Virus record (IMG/VR): IMGVR_UViG_3300030060_001026
Coordinates: 1 to 36,301 of that record
DNA length: 36,301 nt
Strand: one strand, 5' to 3'
Source of the DNA: a virus
In this document: positions 10,454-29,920 of the stretch, one piece after another
Layout of the letters: each line of letters opens with the position of its first letter
How positions within the stretch are numbered: the first letter of the stretch is position 1
Notes under the pieces: model-generated
Database searches by the model: none
What the model saw: the letters and a program-made list of their open reading frames with translations, nothing else
Told to the model about the DNA's origin: nothing
Program-made: the position numbers and the translations under genes

Positions 10454-12547
10454 CTACGTTACGTCCTTCATGTCAAGCCAATTATTACCTATTTTTGCCT
10501 CTAATAACAAAGGCACATTGAAATCTACCTCTAACCACTCACGTATTATATCCTTAATATTATCGTTTGTGCTTTGGACTACGTGTATTACCCAATCCAA
10601 CTCGTCAGGGTGTACATCAATGACGATACTATCATGCACAGTATTTACTACGCAAGACTTTTTGTTGCGTAACATGTGATCAAACTGCCACAGTGCAACA
10701 GGAACTATATCTGCTGTAGCAAATGACTGCACAGGATAGTTTTTTATTTGAGTGAAATGACTCACTCTACCTCTAGGACTACGTACCACATCAGGAAAAG
10801 AAAACTCCCTACCTGATGGTGTGCGTATCTTACCAGTGTTTAGTGCTTCTTTGGCAAGAGACTTGTGCCATCTTGCGATGCCCATATACTTCTCATTAAA
10901 GTGTGAGTAGTATGTAGCCTCTGCCTCTGATCTACCGTACCCACTAGCACCGTATAGTGGTGCAAAGGTATGTGCTTTAGCTTCCTGTCTACTCATAGGT
11001 TGTCCTGCATCAGATATAACTTTAGCAGTATAAGCATGTACATCAAAACCCTCTACCACTTCTTGTATGGCAATAGGATCTTGTGACAGGAATGCTGCAA
11101 CTCTAAACTCTAGTTGTGCAAAGTCAGCCTCAACGATATGTCCACCATCAAAGCGTGATACAAATACACGTTTGACAGGGAACGTACCACCTCTAGGCAT
11201 GTTCTGCATGTTAGGTTCTTTACCACTTAGTCTACCAGTAGATGTCATGTGTTGGTTTAACTTAACATGTAACATACCATCAGCCTTAATATTATTCTTT
11301 ATACCACCAACGAAAGAAGAAAGATATGTGTCCAGTGCAGACAACCTCTGTACCTTTTCCAAAAACTCTAGAGCCTCTGGCATATCTTTTCTTCTTGCAG
11401 CGTTAGCTAGTAACTCCAGATTACGTTTGTTGGTGGAGAAGCCACTAGCTGTAGCCCACTTAGCACTAGGTGGTATAAACTTTAAACCAGCAACAGCGTT
11501 AGTAGGAATAACGTGATAACCGTTGCCACTACACGTGGGACATCTCGTTTCTTTAGCAAATGGGGTGCCATCCTTTTTTACCTTTCTTACTTTACCTGAA
11601 CCATAGCAGGTTTTACACTGCTTTAACTTAGCCTTATATACAATGTCAGTCTCACTACGAATTAGATCTCTGAAACTTGTGTCAGACATATAGGGTTCGT
11701 GTGCGTTCATCCACACTGTTTTATTCTTAGGCTTACGACTGTAAATCAAAGTAGACAATTGTTCTGGACTACTTAGATTAATGGGTACATCACCCATAAG
11801 TTCTCTTACCTTTCCATCTAGATACGCTACTATCTCCTTTCTCTCTTGTTCAAATGTGATACGCACTTCTTCTAGTGCATCACTATCAACTTTAAATCCA
11901 CGTGTATGGATCTTAGATAACTCAACCACCATCATGTTAGTTAAGTATCTAATCTTACTAAGACCTACATCATTAGCACCGTTGAACTTCATGTTTAGTT
12001 CATGTGCCAGTTGCTGTGTGGCATGTAAGTCAGCACTAAGATACTCAGATAACTCTGCATGTGGTATGTCACGTACAGACAAACCTTTCTTTAAGTATTC
12101 TTTCAGAGTGTCCTGCTTCTTAGTATCTAACTCGTACCGTTCAGCACATGCCTCAAGGGATAGTGGTTGTTTGATGCCACGCTGTGTAATGTACTCCATC
12201 ATCATAGTATCAAACACTGTGCCATTATACTTGAAGCCAGACTCCCATAACCACACAAGGTCATGGCTAATGTTGTGGCCTATCAGTACAGTAGCCTTAT
12301 CTAAGGCATCCTGCACTATCTTGTGTCCATCACTAGTGGGTGATACCTCACTGTGATCAAAGGTAACGATTGTTTCATTACCATGATCATCAAGCATACC
12401 CACCATGACTAACGTATTGTCAGGTTCAAAGGGATCGAGATGTAACTTACCGTTACGTTTTGTTACTGTGTTCTCAACGTCTAAGGTAAGTTTCACTGGA
12501 CCACTAGCCCTCTTGTCCGACAACTGATGCTTTAACTGTTCCATCAT
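10454..12547 (-). CDS. Family A DNA polymerase with DnaJ-type zinc-finger insert
   Basis: Replicative polymerase, about 697 residues from the chosen start (GGAG seven bases before an ATG pair; a frame ten codons longer has no such site). Numbering from the chosen ATG: the 3'-5' exonuclease has D23/E25 (DVEN), N92/D96 (NISHD) and Y169/D173 (YLSAD), so proofreading looks intact. Residues about 311-341 hold CKTCYGSG and CPTCSGNG, a half DnaJ central (zinc) domain, as described for HMO-2011. Polymerase motif A is DFAQLEFR (D475), motif B runs R520, K524, F528 to YG, and motif C is H638-D639. Phe at the position of E. coli F762 fits the form usually linked to processive, virulent phages. It overlaps the oxygenase gene upstream by 44 bases. 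Confidence 0.96.
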   Translation of the reverse strand: MMEQLKHQLSDKRASGPVKLTLDVENTVTKRNGKLHLDPFEPDNTLVMVGMLDDHGNETIVTFDHSEVSPTSDGHKIVQDALDKATVLIGHNISHDLVWLWESGFKYNGTVFDTMMMEYITQRGIKQPLSLEACAERYELDTKKQDTLKEYLKKGLSVRDIPHAELSEYLSADLHATQQLAHELNMKFNGANDVGLSKIRYLTNMMVVELSKIHTRGFKVDSDALEEVRITFEQERKEIVAYLDGKVRELMGDVPINLSSPEQLSTLIYSRKPKNKTVWMNAHEPYMSDTSFRDLIRSETDIVYKAKLKQCKTCYGSGKVRKVKKDGTPFAKETRCPTCSGNGYHVIPTNAVAGLKFIPPSAKWATASGFSTNKRNLELLANAARRKDMPEALEFLEKVQRLSALDTYLSSFVGGIKNNIKADGMLHVKLNQHMTSTGRLSGKEPNMQNMPRGGTFPVKRVFVSRFDGGHIVEADFAQLEFRVAAFLSQDPIAIQEVVEGFDVHAYTAKVISDAGQPMSRQEAKAHTFAPLYGASGYGRSEAEATYYSHFNEKYMGIARWHKSLAKEALNTGKIRTPSGREFSFPDVVRSPRGRVSHFTQIKNYPVQSFATADIVPVALWQFDHMLRNKKSCVVNTVHDSIVIDVHPDELDWVIHVVQSTNDNIKDIIREWLEVDFNVPLLLEAKIGNNWLDMKDVT

Positions 12548-13226
12548 TTTTTTGCTCCACTTTCTTTGGGATCTCAAGGAAGTTAAAGTTTACACTAAAA
12601 GATCTACGTTCACCCTTAGTCTTGAATGGATAGACACAGTGAAATAATTCACTAGGAAACAAATAGAAGTCACCCACCTGTGGCTTAACCATAAAGTTTG
12701 TAGCACTATACGTACTGGCAGTGCCATGCACAAACTGTATGTGTCCATGTGAAGGATGATGATCTTTGTAATCCTCTTCCCATTCAGAGTCTATGCCATC
12801 TGGCAACTTGAGATAGCCAACGCATGACATCCTACATCCTGTGTGTAGGTGCAGTGGGTTGTAATCATTCTCAAACTGACGCACTAGCCACCCTGATATA
12901 AACTGCACAGAATAATTATTTCTTTCTGTGTCTAACATGTTCTGTCCGTATGAGTTGCGTATTGTAGCTGTATTATTGTAGCTACCTACGAACTGTTTGA
13001 TCTCATTTAAGAATGTATCTCTCATCTCATCTGTAAAGAACAACTCCTGTTTTACCTTACCGACTAACTGATCAGAGTAGTCTGTCATAGATGCAAAGTC
13101 TTTATCAAAGTATGCATTCATGTCTGCTACAAACTTTGCACTTAGTTTCTTGTAACCCATAACAGGTCCAAAAGGAAAGAAGATCTGTTCCTCTGCATCT
13201 GGTTTGGGTCTAAATATATTTACCAT
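12504..13226 (-). CDS. 2-oxoglutarate/Fe(II)-dependent oxygenase family protein
   Basis: A 240-residue protein of the phage 2OG-Fe(II) oxygenase type. Iron ligands are visible: H126 and/or H128 in NPLHLHTG and H196 in FHCVYPF, with R208 in ERRSFSVNF as the likely 2-oxoglutarate anchor. The first histidine motif (N-P-x-H-x-H) and the strand YLKLP after it fit the Pfam PF13759 pattern rather than classical AlkB. Such enzymes hydroxylate proteins, nucleic acid bases or small molecules; the substrate is unknown. It has a perfect GGAGG six bases before ATG and overlaps the polymerase gene by 44 bases, so expression is tied to replication. DNA modification or repair is one possibility, virion or host protein hydroxylation another. 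Confidence 0.85.
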   Translation of the reverse strand: MVNIFRPKPDAEEQIFFPFGPVMGYKKLSAKFVADMNAYFDKDFASMTDYSDQLVGKVKQELFFTDEMRDTFLNEIKQFVGSYNNTATIRNSYGQNMLDTERNNYSVQFISGWLVRQFENDYNPLHLHTGCRMSCVGYLKLPDGIDSEWEEDYKDHHPSHGHIQFVHGTASTYSATNFMVKPQVGDFYLFPSELFHCVYPFKTKGERRSFSVNFNFLEIPKKVEQKNDGTVKASVVGQEG

Positions 13227-17330: not shown

Positions 17331-18368
17331 TTACATTGATAGGTCTTGTAGTTTCATTATTGCCTTGGATCTTTGCTTACGCTCTGCATCACCTAGTGGT
17401 ATCAGTCCGTAGTCAGTTAGATAACCATCAGGACCAGTGGCTCTATCTGATACAAAAATATCTACATACTTCCTTAGTCCTCTGATTAGTCCAATGCTGG
17501 ACTTCTTTACGTAAAAGTATAGTGGTCTGGACACAGGATACTTACCTGATGCAATGTTCTCAAACGTAGGCTTGTGTCCCTGAACAATGCTACCCTGTAT
17601 CTTGTCACCATTCATGTCCAAGAAGCTGAACCCAAAGATACCAAGTGTGTGTGGATTAACAGTTAGTTTGTGTATAATCATGTTGTCGTTCTCTCCTGCC
17701 TCTATGTATACACCATCCTCACGTATGGTATGACACAAGGATTTATATAACATCTTATTAGAGTGCTTCAATGCTTTGATCCACTTAAATGTTTTACAAC
17801 CTCCTTCCATTGCTAGTTCAACAAATGCATCACGTGTTCCTGATGTAGGTGGTGGACCTAGCACTTCGATCTTAGTGGCAGGTAGCATTGGGTTTATCTG
17901 CTTCCATGTTCTGTATGGGTTAGGCATTGTCTTACCATCTTTGGTAGGCACCTCCTTTGCTAGTGCCAAGAAGATGTCACGCAGTGACAATCCAAATCTT
18001 TTTGAGTTTCTACTGTTTGCTAACACGATACCATCATACCCCACTTTTACTTCTAGTATATTTCTTACACCGTTTCTCTGGCACATGTCAAACTCTTTTT
18101 TCTTGATGCGTCTAGAAGCATTGGTAACGTCTGCATAACGCAAACTTGTACCAGAACAAAAGATCTTCATGCCACCACCTGAACCAGTGCTTTCAATTAT
18201 AGGTGTTTTAAATGGTGTAGACTTACCAAACTTTTCAGCAACGATTGTTGCGAATGGATATACAGTCGATGATCCCACGACTCTGATCTGCTCTCGTGCA
18301 GATGCTAGACCCATAGACACAGAGGTAATAAAGTAAGTTAGTATTAAAGTTAATATTATATTATACAT
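17331..18368 (-). CDS. pstS: PstS-like phosphate ABC transporter substrate-binding protein
   Basis: A 345-residue periplasmic binding protein. A signal peptide is visible at residues 1-24 (hydrophobic core, cleavage likely after GLASA). Ligand-binding loops of the PstS family follow: VVGSSTVYPFA, ESTGSGGGMKIF, NASRRIKKKEF, GYDGIVLANS and GPPPTSGTRDAF. It would capture phosphate in the host periplasm and feed the host Pst transporter; pstS is a known auxiliary metabolic gene of marine phages. The gene has AGGAG upstream and follows small exported or hypothetical genes. I see no Pho-box sequence that I could defend, so regulation by phosphate is not shown. Full length, no missing part. Confidence 0.94.
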   Translation of the reverse strand: MYNIILTLILTYFITSVSMGLASAREQIRVVGSSTVYPFATIVAEKFGKSTPFKTPIIESTGSGGGMKIFCSGTSLRYADVTNASRRIKKKEFDMCQRNGVRNILEVKVGYDGIVLANSRNSKRFGLSLRDIFLALAKEVPTKDGKTMPNPYRTWKQINPMLPATKIEVLGPPPTSGTRDAFVELAMEGGCKTFKWIKALKHSNKMLYKSLCHTIREDGVYIEAGENDNMIIHKLTVNPHTLGIFGFSFLDMNGDKIQGSIVQGHKPTFENIASGKYPVSRPLYFYVKKSSIGLIRGLRKYVDIFVSDRATGPDGYLTDYGLIPLGDAERKQRSKAIMKLQDLSM

Positions 18369-27373: not shown

Positions 27374-27499
27374 ATGCCTATGCACAAAAAGAAGACAAAG
27401 AAAATGGCTAAAGGAGGTGCTACCAAAAAAATGATGTATGGTGGTATGTCTAAGAAAACTAAAAAAATGTCTAAAGGTGGAGCTGCCAGACGTAGGTAA
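27374..27499 (+). CDS. Basic GG-motif micropeptide, 41 aa
   Basis: AGGAG lies about nine bases before ATG. The product is made of Lys, Met and Gly pairs (MAKGGATKKMMYGGMSKK, then SKGGAARRR), a low-complexity basic peptide with three GG motifs. Its stop overlaps the next ATG (TAATG). Similar GG-bearing tails occur in neighbouring proteins, so a shared assembly or DNA-neutralising role is possible. Confidence 0.65.
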   Translation: MPMHKKKTKKMAKGGATKKMMYGGMSKKTKKMSKGGAARRR

Positions 27500-28218
27500 T
27501 GCCCAATCTAATTAGTAATGTACCCCACTTTAATTGTTGGGTTAGAAGAGAGTTTACTAGTAACCATCAGAATTATCACGGTGACTTTCTTCATGCGATT
27601 GCATTCGCAGTAAATACAATACCAGACAGATCACTTAGCTTTCAGATTGTATTTACAGGATGTGAAATAGATAGGGAGGATGGACCTACAGAAAACGTGC
27701 ATGGTGGAGCTATGTGGGCTAGAATGCCAATACAAGCATTAGTAGCTGACATACCTCTAGAAGATTGGCCTGAACCTATGGAAGACCACTTATGTCAACC
27801 TTGGGATTGTGAGTCACGTGATCATAGCACAGTCGTATTAGACAGAGTAAGTTCATCACCTTGGTTATGTAAAATAGGAGGTGATTTCTACACAGGTAAA
27901 TACTTATTTACCGTGGACTATACAGGTAATGATATTGCAGATGATCCTGCACAGCATAAGCAATCACACGTAATATATTTAACAGATGCTGGTAGCTGGA
28001 CAGGCAACTTTGTAGCATTACCTAATAATAGGGTTAGGGCTACGAGTCCTGCTTTATGGCGCACTGGAGAGGGTGCACCAGACTTTACACCCTCACAGTG
28101 GTCACATTCAGCAGAAGGCCATGAGTCTTACTTAGACCCATCTGTAACTTTTAACAATCTGTATTCAAATGGCAAAACAAACAAAAGCAAAAAGAGTAGT
28201 AAAAAAAGTAGCAAGTAA
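27499..28218 (+). CDS. Protein of unknown function, 239 aa
   Basis: A larger, neutral to acidic protein, Trp-, His- and Asp-rich, beta-strand-like throughout (segments FNCWVRREFTSNHQNYHG, QIVFTGCEIDRED, YLFTVDYTGND, DAGSWTGNFVALPN). The final 15 residues are a Lys/Ser tail encoded by DNA that also encodes the start of the next gene in another frame. I recognise no catalytic motif; the composition resembles a virion decoration or receptor-contacting protein, which is inference. Start overlaps the previous stop (TAATG). Confidence 0.78.
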   Translation: MPNLISNVPHFNCWVRREFTSNHQNYHGDFLHAIAFAVNTIPDRSLSFQIVFTGCEIDREDGPTENVHGGAMWARMPIQALVADIPLEDWPEPMEDHLCQPWDCESRDHSTVVLDRVSSSPWLCKIGGDFYTGKYLFTVDYTGNDIADDPAQHKQSHVIYLTDAGSWTGNFVALPNNRVRATSPALWRTGEGAPDFTPSQWSHSAEGHESYLDPSVTFNNLYSNGKTNKSKKSSKKSSK

Positions 28219-28459
28219 GTTAGCAAAAGCTAGTGCTGCACATAAGAAGCAGTCTAAGCAACTTAGTGCGCTTAAACTAAAAGCAGGTGGTAGCACCGTA
28301 AATAAATCAGGTAACTACACTCAGCCGGGTATGCGTAAAAGATTATTTAATAGTATTAAGGCTAGTGGAAAAGGCGGTGCTCCGGGGCAGTGGTCAGCAA
28401 GAAAGGCTCAAATGTTAGCAAAGCGTTACAAAGAAAAAGGTGGAGGATATAAATCTTAA
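28169..28459 (+). CDS. Basic phage protein, 96 aa
   Basis: The C-terminal block TQPGMRKRLFNSIKASGKGG, then APGQWSARKAQMLAKRYK, is a pattern that I have seen in many marine and other phage proteins near structural genes (G-x-W-S-A-R-K-A-Q-x-L-A). The N-terminus is Lys/Ala-rich (MAKQTKAKRVVKKVASKLAK). It probably binds DNA or a virion component; its role is unknown. It overlaps the previous gene by 50 bases, and its stop overlaps the ATG of the Cys-rich peptide. Confidence 0.82.
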   Translation: MAKQTKAKRVVKKVASKLAKASAAHKKQSKQLSALKLKAGGSTVNKSGNYTQPGMRKRLFNSIKASGKGGAPGQWSARKAQMLAKRYKEKGGGYKS

Positions 28460-28578
28460 TGACCTGTGATTGTGGCGAAAATGATAAGTGCATGTGTGAC
28501 ACAGAAAAATGTGATAGTTGCATAGAATGTAACTGTGACCCTAATGTGTGTAAGTGTGGTTGTCATGGCGAAGACTAA
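28459..28578 (+). CDS. Metallothionein-like Cys-rich peptide, 39 aa
   Basis: A 39-residue peptide with 11 cysteines and one histidine: CxC pairs at C3/C5, C11/C13, C24/C26, C31/C33/C35 and CxxC at C18/C21 (MTCDCGENDKCMC, then CDSCIECNCD, then CKCGCHGED). Such density of CxC and CxxC motifs is the metallothionein hallmark for binding several zinc, copper or cadmium ions. The start overlaps the previous stop (TAATG) with GGAGG 13-17 bases upstream, and the end overlaps the next gene by 14 bases, so it sits in a continuous operon. No disulfide-protein signal peptide is present, so it stays in the cytoplasm. It matches no bacterial family (SmtA type) that I can recall. Confidence 0.75.
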   Translation: MTCDCGENDKCMCDTEKCDSCIECNCDPNVCKCGCHGED

Positions 28579-28813
28579 ACGACAGGAAAGCCTATCAGCT
28601 TGGGGTAGACAGAAGTGGCGAACCAAATCAGGTAAGCCATCTACACAAGGACCAAAAGCAACAGGAGAAAGATATTTACCTACTGCTGCAATAAAGTCCT
28701 TGACACCAAGTGAATATGCAGCTACAACTAGAGCTAAACGTAAAAGTAAAAAACAACACGCTAAACAACCAAAAGGTATAGCAAAGAAGACTGCACGTTT
28801 TAGGAGAGTGTGA
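28565..28813 (+). CDS. Basic conserved-looking phage protein, 82 aa
   Basis: Start MAKTKRQESLSAWGRQKW; a longer frame would read through the Cys-rich peptide gene and has no signal. Blocks are SLSAWGRQKWRTKSGK, GPKATGERYLPTAAIKSL and EYAATTRAKR. This pattern is common in late regions of phages, role unknown. It is very basic at the C-terminus (KKTARFRRV). The stop overlaps the ATG of the next gene (TGATG). Confidence 0.82.
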   Translation: MAKTKRQESLSAWGRQKWRTKSGKPSTQGPKATGERYLPTAAIKSLTPSEYAATTRAKRKSKKQHAKQPKGIAKKTARFRRV

Positions 28814-29199
28814 TGTTTGGTTTAGGATCTTTAATAGGACCAGTGGCTAATCTAGCTAGTACATGGTTAGACGGTCACGTAGCTGAAAAGAAAGCTAAGA
28901 CAGAAGCTAAGATTGTTACTATTAAATCTGAAGCTAAGATAAAAGAAAGACAGGCTACAGGTGAGATAGATTGGGATATAGCACAGGCTAAAGCGAGTGA
29001 AGGTAGTTGGAAAGATGAATGGCTTACGATTTTGTTTTCGATACCTTTGGTACTGGCGTTTGTTCCCGGTTGTGAAGACATAGTACAAATAGGTTTTGCA
29101 CAATTGCAGTTAATGCCTGATTGGTATAAGTATGCTCTTTCAGTAATCGTAGCTGCATCGTTTGGGGTACGTAGTGCCACTAAACTATTTAAAAAATAG
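28813..29199 (+). CDS. Holin-like membrane protein, about 128 aa
   Basis: Layout: short hydrophobic start (FGLGSLIGPVANLAST), a charged helical middle (EKKAKTEAKIVTIKSEAK), then two membrane helices (WLTILFSIPLVLAFVPG and YALSVIVAASFGVRSATK) with a Lys-rich end. This resembles three-helix phage holins of the gene-transfer-agent holin type. The lysozyme gene lies two genes downstream, supporting a lysis role. An alternative is a membrane protein of virion assembly. The start codon ATG overlaps the previous stop; a GTG one codon earlier is possible. Confidence 0.75.
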   Translation: MFGLGSLIGPVANLASTWLDGHVAEKKAKTEAKIVTIKSEAKIKERQATGEIDWDIAQAKASEGSWKDEWLTILFSIPLVLAFVPGCEDIVQIGFAQLQLMPDWYKYALSVIVAASFGVRSATKLFKK

Positions 29200-29428: not shown

Positions 29429-29920
29429 ATGAAATATAACTCAAGTAAATTAATGGATATGCTAGTAGTAGATGAAGGTATGGAACTACAAGTATATAAA
29501 GATAGTCTTGGTATAGATACAATTGGAGTTGGGCGTAATTTAGAGCATAGAGGTTTAACAGAAGAAGAACTTCAACATTTAGGTTATAAAACATTACAAG
29601 ATGTATATGATAAAGGTTTAACTTTGTATGGATCTAGATACTTATTAAGAAACGATGTTACAATAGCTGAGTTAGAATTATGCAAAGCTCATCCATGTGT
29701 TAAGAGTTTAAGTGCAGAGAGACAGATGGTATGTATTAACATGGCATTTAATTTAGGAATACCACGTTTAAATAAATTTAAAAAGATGTGGGCAGCTATA
29801 CATGATGGTGATTACGAAACTGCTTCTATAGAAATGTTAGACTCTAAATGGGCAGATCAAGTAAAGGGTAGAGCAGTAAGATTAAGTAATATAATGAAGA
29901 CAGGAAAACTAGATGGCTAG
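29429..29920 (+). CDS. T4-type lysozyme (GH24 muramidase), endolysin
   Basis: A 163-residue endolysin. The catalytic triad of T4 lysozyme is present with the right spacing: E16 in VVDEG, D25 in VYKDS and T31 in DTIGVG. The T4 residue His31 is replaced by Arg36. The C-terminal part (MVCINMAFNLGIPRLNKFKK, then AVRLSNIMKTG) matches the second lobe. It cleaves the glycan of peptidoglycan after holin release; there is no signal peptide, so it depends on the holin. It overlaps the terminase small-subunit-like gene by eight bases. Confidence 0.94.
   Translation: MKYNSSKLMDMLVVDEGMELQVYKDSLGIDTIGVGRNLEHRGLTEEELQHLGYKTLQDVYDKGLTLYGSRYLLRNDVTIAELELCKAHPCVKSLSAERQMVCINMAFNLGIPRLNKFKKMWAAIHDGDYETASIEMLDSKWADQVKGRAVRLSNIMKTGKLDG

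Follow-up and report, generated by a model that had tools for sequence, protein, structure and literature searches.

An open reading frame at positions 28459–28578 (+) of the window (the whole 36,301-nucleotide stretch of viral DNA analysed here, part of a 44.9 kb IMG/VR record) is a real gene, as established by its translation, its homologues and the selection acting on it. It encodes a cysteine-cluster peptide belonging to a large, conserved, virus-only family that had previously gone unannotated. The gene is under purifying selection that acts on the cysteines, and the peptide gene is tightly linked genetically with a phage gene for an A-type Fe-S carrier. From its composition, the invariance of its cysteines and the spacing kept in homologues, the peptide is likely to bind metal through thiolates.

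The translation of the frame, MTCDCGENDKCMCDTEKCDSCIECNCDPNVCKCGCHGED, is 39 aa long and carries 11 Cys (28%) and one His, with the cysteines spaced as five CxC and two CxxC pairs, in agreement with the preliminary description of this DNA. The product has a computed mass of 4.3 kDa and a pI of 4.15, and has neither a hydrophobic stretch nor a signal peptide. An N-terminal module with two CxC pairs (CDCGENDKCMCDTEK, 28465–28509, +) is followed in the alignment by a conserved core of seven Cys and the His (CDSCIECNCDPNVCKCGCH, 28510–28566, +). AlphaFold returned no confident fold for the peptide (pLDDT 57), as expected for Cys peptides of this sort. Translation probably initiates from a GGAGG ribosome-binding site within the upstream gene (about 28442–28446, +). 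The stop codon of that gene and the start of the Cys gene share the sequence TAATG (28457–28461, +), and the ATG of the next gene, at 28565, produces a 14-base overlap, so that both the coupling and the overlap described earlier are present.

The Cys gene sits among small late genes, upstream of the lysozyme, terminase and portal genes. It is preceded by a gene for a small basic protein of 96 aa (28169–28459, +; phrog_17747 by PHROG match and synteny) and followed by one for a small basic protein of 82 aa (28565–28813, +; phrog_14910). Beyond these lie a gene for a small protein with hydrophobic C-terminal stretches (28810–29199, +; phrog_2524, of unknown function), which from its position is probably part of a lysis cassette, and a phage lysozyme gene (29429–29920, +; Pfam match to PF00959). 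On the reading we favour, the peptide is made with the lysis and late proteins by translational coupling. Elsewhere in the window, a conserved 239-aa protein (27499–28218, +; phrog_3704), whose gene adjoins those of many Cys peptides, has 27–29% identity to a short gene of cyanophages and pelagiphage HTVC008M labelled 'PurM' or 'ferredoxin'; a Pfam and NCBIfam search with it gave no match, and these labels therefore look doubtful. The window also encodes a phosphate-binding-protein-like gene (17331–18368, –; PF12849), a possible phosphate auxiliary gene, and a 2OG-Fe(II) oxygenase (12504–13226, –; PF13759) adjoining the DNA polymerase gene.

The cysteine content of the frame is not matched by chance. 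When the window was shuffled 100 times with dinucleotides preserved, no open reading frame of at least 30 aa reached 25% Cys (maximum 21%); the binomial tail for the peptide's content at the window's own Cys frequency was 1.5e-11, and no other CxCxCH frame occurs in the window. Relatives were gathered through the neighbouring anchor gene (28810–29199), and not through the peptide, to avoid selecting for cysteines. After two loci had been set aside (L015, which begins too near the anchor, and L012, which has another upstream region), the peptide was present with every core Cys in 13 of 13 relatives at 84–99% anchor identity. The preliminary description had named broken frames or lost cysteines at homologous loci as grounds for refutation, and had proposed a dN/dS test. 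Neither ground was seen. The core CDSCxECxCxPxxCxCxCH was intact and the frames unbroken at all 14 loci counting the window, with no sign of decay at any of those compared, and the ratio, calculated as pN/pS, was 0.12 over 12 distinct cores (14 loci including the window, the pairs being not independent). Across the same 14 loci, the seven core Cys columns differed only by TGT/TGC exchange, with no replacement.

The window portal protein is 73–79% identical to those of its three closest relatives, HMO-2011, CRP-1 and CRP-345, which identifies the phage as an HMO-2011-type marine podovirus; it has the portal, terminase and gene order of that group. In Puniceispirillum phage HMO-2011 and the Roseobacter CRP phages the late gene order around the lysozyme and terminase is as in the window, whereas the Cys motif is absent. 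The core spacing was found in none of 15 whole group records (HMO-2011, Roseobacter CRP phages, pelagiphages and one uncultured 54.8 kb genome), indicating that the Cys gene is accessory and belongs to uncultured members of the group. The earlier suggestion that such a short frame may be missed across related phages was not borne out here, the motif being truly absent from these 15 records and not overlooked.

A scan of IMG/VR with the strict pattern C-x-C-x2-C-x2-C-x-C-x4-C-x-C-x-C-H returned 73 stretches, 67 of them of the window-peptide kind (family A, with at least 59 distinct proteins in IMG/VR). A looser pattern identified a sister family (family B; core CxTCECYxCDCEECNCDCH) with at least 57 distinct proteins at loci L153–L262, often ending in EEVQGVPV or VAEKGND. 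The profiles of families A and B align across the core with a probability of 84.5%. By synteny, both types are found among the late genes of HMO-2011-like phages, in slots that vary; some family A members, for example L095 and L137, occur in other phage backgrounds. Among 84,980 bacterial and archaeal genomes, the strict pattern matched only poly-Cys low-complexity sequence, out-of-frame segments and a single phage contig, which had been binned in a Halobacteriovorax MAG. When a profile was run against 385 genomes from the class of a Rhodospirillaceae MAG (G001), the one weak match (L416) was set aside as a Cys-rich protein that is unrelated and seems to have a signal sequence; 369 genomes from the class of a Granulosicoccus MAG (G002) gave none. 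A tblastn search of phage records with the peptide was uninformative; masking of low-complexity sequence may conceal matches in such a search. No convincing match to either family was found in Pfam or PHROG, nor any to family A in NCBIfam. A profile search of solved structures gave none. Metallothionein models of Pfam and NCBIfam matched 0 of 34 family A members above the curated cut-off, and those of Pfam matched 0 of 27 family B members.

The Cys gene directly follows the lysozyme gene at three loci (L095, L108, L137), and a GH24 regular expression found lysozyme near 20 family A loci (12.5 expected) and 15 family B loci (9.4 expected), a proximity that is suggestive only. Near the Cys gene and the lysis genes there is also a membrane-type protein of ~108 aa (L148:1108–1431, with similar frames at L090, L095, L096, L114, L127 and L131) with the pattern FxxGIxFxxxxxFxEGDxCIxDGDxAIxxKIGxxE; it had no match in a Pfam search, and we take it to resemble a miniature MscS mechanosensitive channel.

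At several family A loci, the Cys gene has as its neighbour a gene for an A-type Fe-S carrier (IscA/ErpA-like). The carrier scores 55 bits against PF01521 (cut-off 26.3) and 85 bits against TIGR00049 (cut-off 58.8), and its three conserved cysteines (GGGCSG, CGCGE) are invariant. This IscA-like gene was found at 18 of 76 family A loci, 0 of 65 family B loci and 1 of 195 loci with neither family, and that single locus, L017, has a Cys peptide of divergent sequence; the association between A loci and the carrier has a Fisher value of 3e-10, calculated without phylogenetic correction on related contigs that are not independent samples. The association was also examined in reverse, starting from the carrier, with 29 IMG/VR IscA loci (27 close and two remote, the latter at 43–44%). 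A same-strand CxCxCH peptide lay within 3 kb of the carrier at 26 of the 27 close loci, and within 450 bp at 21; at the only close locus without one (L393), the sequence reaches just 1.2 kb beyond the carrier on its upstream side. No Cys peptide was found at the two remote loci. The background, taken from 140 late-region control loci, was ~0.13 CxCxCH frames per 6 kb over six frames.

The two genes are not arranged in one fixed way. In L007 the Cys gene comes first and overlaps the IscA-like gene by 17 nt; in L008, L114 and L168 it also comes first, with a gap between the two, and in L116 and L148 it follows the IscA-like gene. The linkage therefore arose, or was reordered, on more than one occasion. 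L007 is close to the window (98% in the anchor, 97% in the terminase), and there the IscA-like gene occupies the place of the window's downstream basic gene (28565–28813). An IscA-like gene was not found in the 44.9 kb record of the window phage, and no IscU partner was detected by motif near the Cys loci. Since the window phage, the majority of A loci and every B locus are without a nearby IscA gene, the peptide does not require this pairing. Fe-S carrier genes are already known from marine phages: in the available text of two reports, metagenomic genomes of the HMO-2011 type are described as carrying iscU and erpA (PMC9038755), and 14 genomes of marine viruses as encoding A-type carriers (PMC5332604). 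The neighbouring IscA-like gene belongs to auxiliary genes of this kind. That text makes no mention of a Cys-rich partner peptide, and the new element relative to it is the pairing of carrier and peptide.

The preliminary description had called the peptide metallothionein-like. At 4.3 kDa and 28% Cys it lies within the range of that class (<10 kDa, ~15–35% Cys), and its cysteines form CxC/CxxC arrays. Bacterial metallothioneins have 55–79 aa and 8–10 Cys, and bind 3–4 Zn (PMC8636135 Table 1). The window peptide is alike in kind to SmtA/BmtA and PmtA (PF02069), which are small cytosolic proteins with 8–10 Cys plus His in CxC/CxxC pairs that bind 3–4 Zn; unlike them, it is shorter, more Cys-dense, acidic and confined to phages, and matches no Pfam or NCBIfam model. 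SmtA contains a segment with a zinc-finger fold, of which the window peptide has no counterpart. In mammalian metallothioneins, 30–35 residues suffice for an alpha domain with 11 Cys (M4S11) or a beta domain with nine ligands (M3S9). These domains are comparable in ligand count to the window peptide (11 Cys and one His) and to the family A core (eight Cys and one His), although the peptide is not homologous to them, is rich in D/E instead of K/S, and ends in CxCxCH. On these comparisons, the peptide belongs to no described metallothionein family, though it would be metallothionein-like in its presumed working. The earlier label therefore stands as far as a real, conserved and selected peptide of fitting size and composition is concerned, and falls short for the longer members, whose additional segments exceed the needs of a bare metallothionein. 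Nothing was found to tie the peptide to either of two roles proposed with that label, the mopping up of metals from dying enzymes and the supply of zinc to the polymerase and primase.

The gene linkage suggests a functional tie of the peptide to Fe-S chemistry. We consider the chances about even that it is a metallothionein-like thiolate peptide that provides or safeguards metal for the Fe-S and metal proteins of the phage or its host during infection. The small, soluble, acidic peptide would fold only around metals held by the CxC/CxxC thiolates and the terminal His. In carrier-bearing lineages, peptide and A-type carrier would act as a pair, with the peptide storing or donating metal, or shielding the carrier and nascent clusters from Cu, Zn or Cd, and the carrier, during infection, passing clusters on to targets of the phage or the host. 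Where the carrier is missing, as in the window phage, the peptide alone may act on the host Fe-S and metal pool. The carrier nearly always occurs with the peptide and the peptide often occurs without the carrier, as expected of a general metal store or guard.

It is possible, if somewhat doubtful, that the peptide is instead a stand-alone metallothionein that buffers zinc, copper or cadmium with no Fe-S tie, its IscA neighbourhood reflecting a shared hotspot for accessory genes. Such a role would fit the composition and Cys spacing, the position of both the Cys and IscA genes in the variable late region, and the lack of a nearby IscA-like gene at most A loci and at every B locus. A hotspot alone, however, leaves unexplained the peptide at 26 of 27 IscA loci against the background of the 140 controls, as well as the near-complete absence of IscA where there is no Cys peptide (1/195).

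The longer members raise another question. Many family A proteins begin with MGYYRNYY(x)2R and continue with GGCGQESIL and varied tails, whereas the window protein is a short form, consisting of the double-CxC N-terminal module and the core. Among homologues, that N-terminal module is found only in L009, L011, L014, L016, L107, L117, L141 and L234, and in L201 it is a separate upstream ORF. Metallothioneins have few or no aromatic residues; the window protein has none, but the longer homologues have those of MGYYRNYY, and the family B core contains Tyr. An eighth Cys, two residues before the first of the window core, is present in most homologues. By alignment, the Cys core is the sole part common to all members, and its CxC/CxxC cysteines are invariant. 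The MGYYRNYY codons vary synonymously among the longer members, and a reading of this segment as a DNA promoter element was rejected for that reason. Proteins without the CxCxCH core that start with MG/SYYRNYYMQR also occur, at L087, L090, L109, L124 and L201. The tail KEFWRNRG/Q is common to such core-less proteins and to Cys-bearing relatives (L201, L234, L246), and short protein modules thus appear to have been shuffled.

Metal storage does not explain the conserved non-Cys segments of the longer members. These segments would suit a zinc-stabilised protein-interaction module, in which a Cys knot serves as a rigid connector for short host-binding motifs that redirect a late-stage host process. 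The retention of MGYYRNYY through synonymous change, its use as a start on core-less proteins (L087, L090, L109, L124), and the recurrence of GGCGQESIL and similar tails, with FKxxxxE-type tails among the proposed motifs, all point this way. We nevertheless regard this role as unlikely, as the window form does without those segments and is almost purely the Cys part, only the core is common to all, and at least eight Cys in ~20 residues exceed what a structural zinc finger needs. Less probable by far is that the peptide itself binds an Fe-S cluster, as a ferredoxin-like protein or cluster shuttle: the linkage to an A-type carrier and the CxxCxxC spacing within the core are consistent with this, but the peptide lacks the distal CP found in bacterial ferredoxins, its density of CxC pairs resembles that of a metallothionein, and no ferredoxin model matched. 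A spurious frame or chance composition, which might be suspected of a short and unannotated ORF, is ruled out by the shuffles, the pN/pS ratio and the size of the family, which exceeds 100 distinct proteins.

Fe-S carrier genes had been known in marine phages, this group included, with nothing to explain how one of them could function by itself; the partner peptide at nearly every sampled carrier locus offers a directly testable mechanism. The family also illustrates how, through blindness to small ORFs, a conserved set of genes stays hidden in an abundant group of ocean viruses. No phage metallothionein was found in the open-licence literature searched. Tentatively, and with rather less than even confidence, we propose that marine podoviruses carry a two-gene metal/Fe-S module, consisting of an A-type carrier and a dedicated thiolate metallochaperone peptide of a new family, through which the virus would control the loading of Fe-S or metal cofactors during infection, and that related phages may have kept only the peptide, which would then be the first phage metallothionein family to be recognised.
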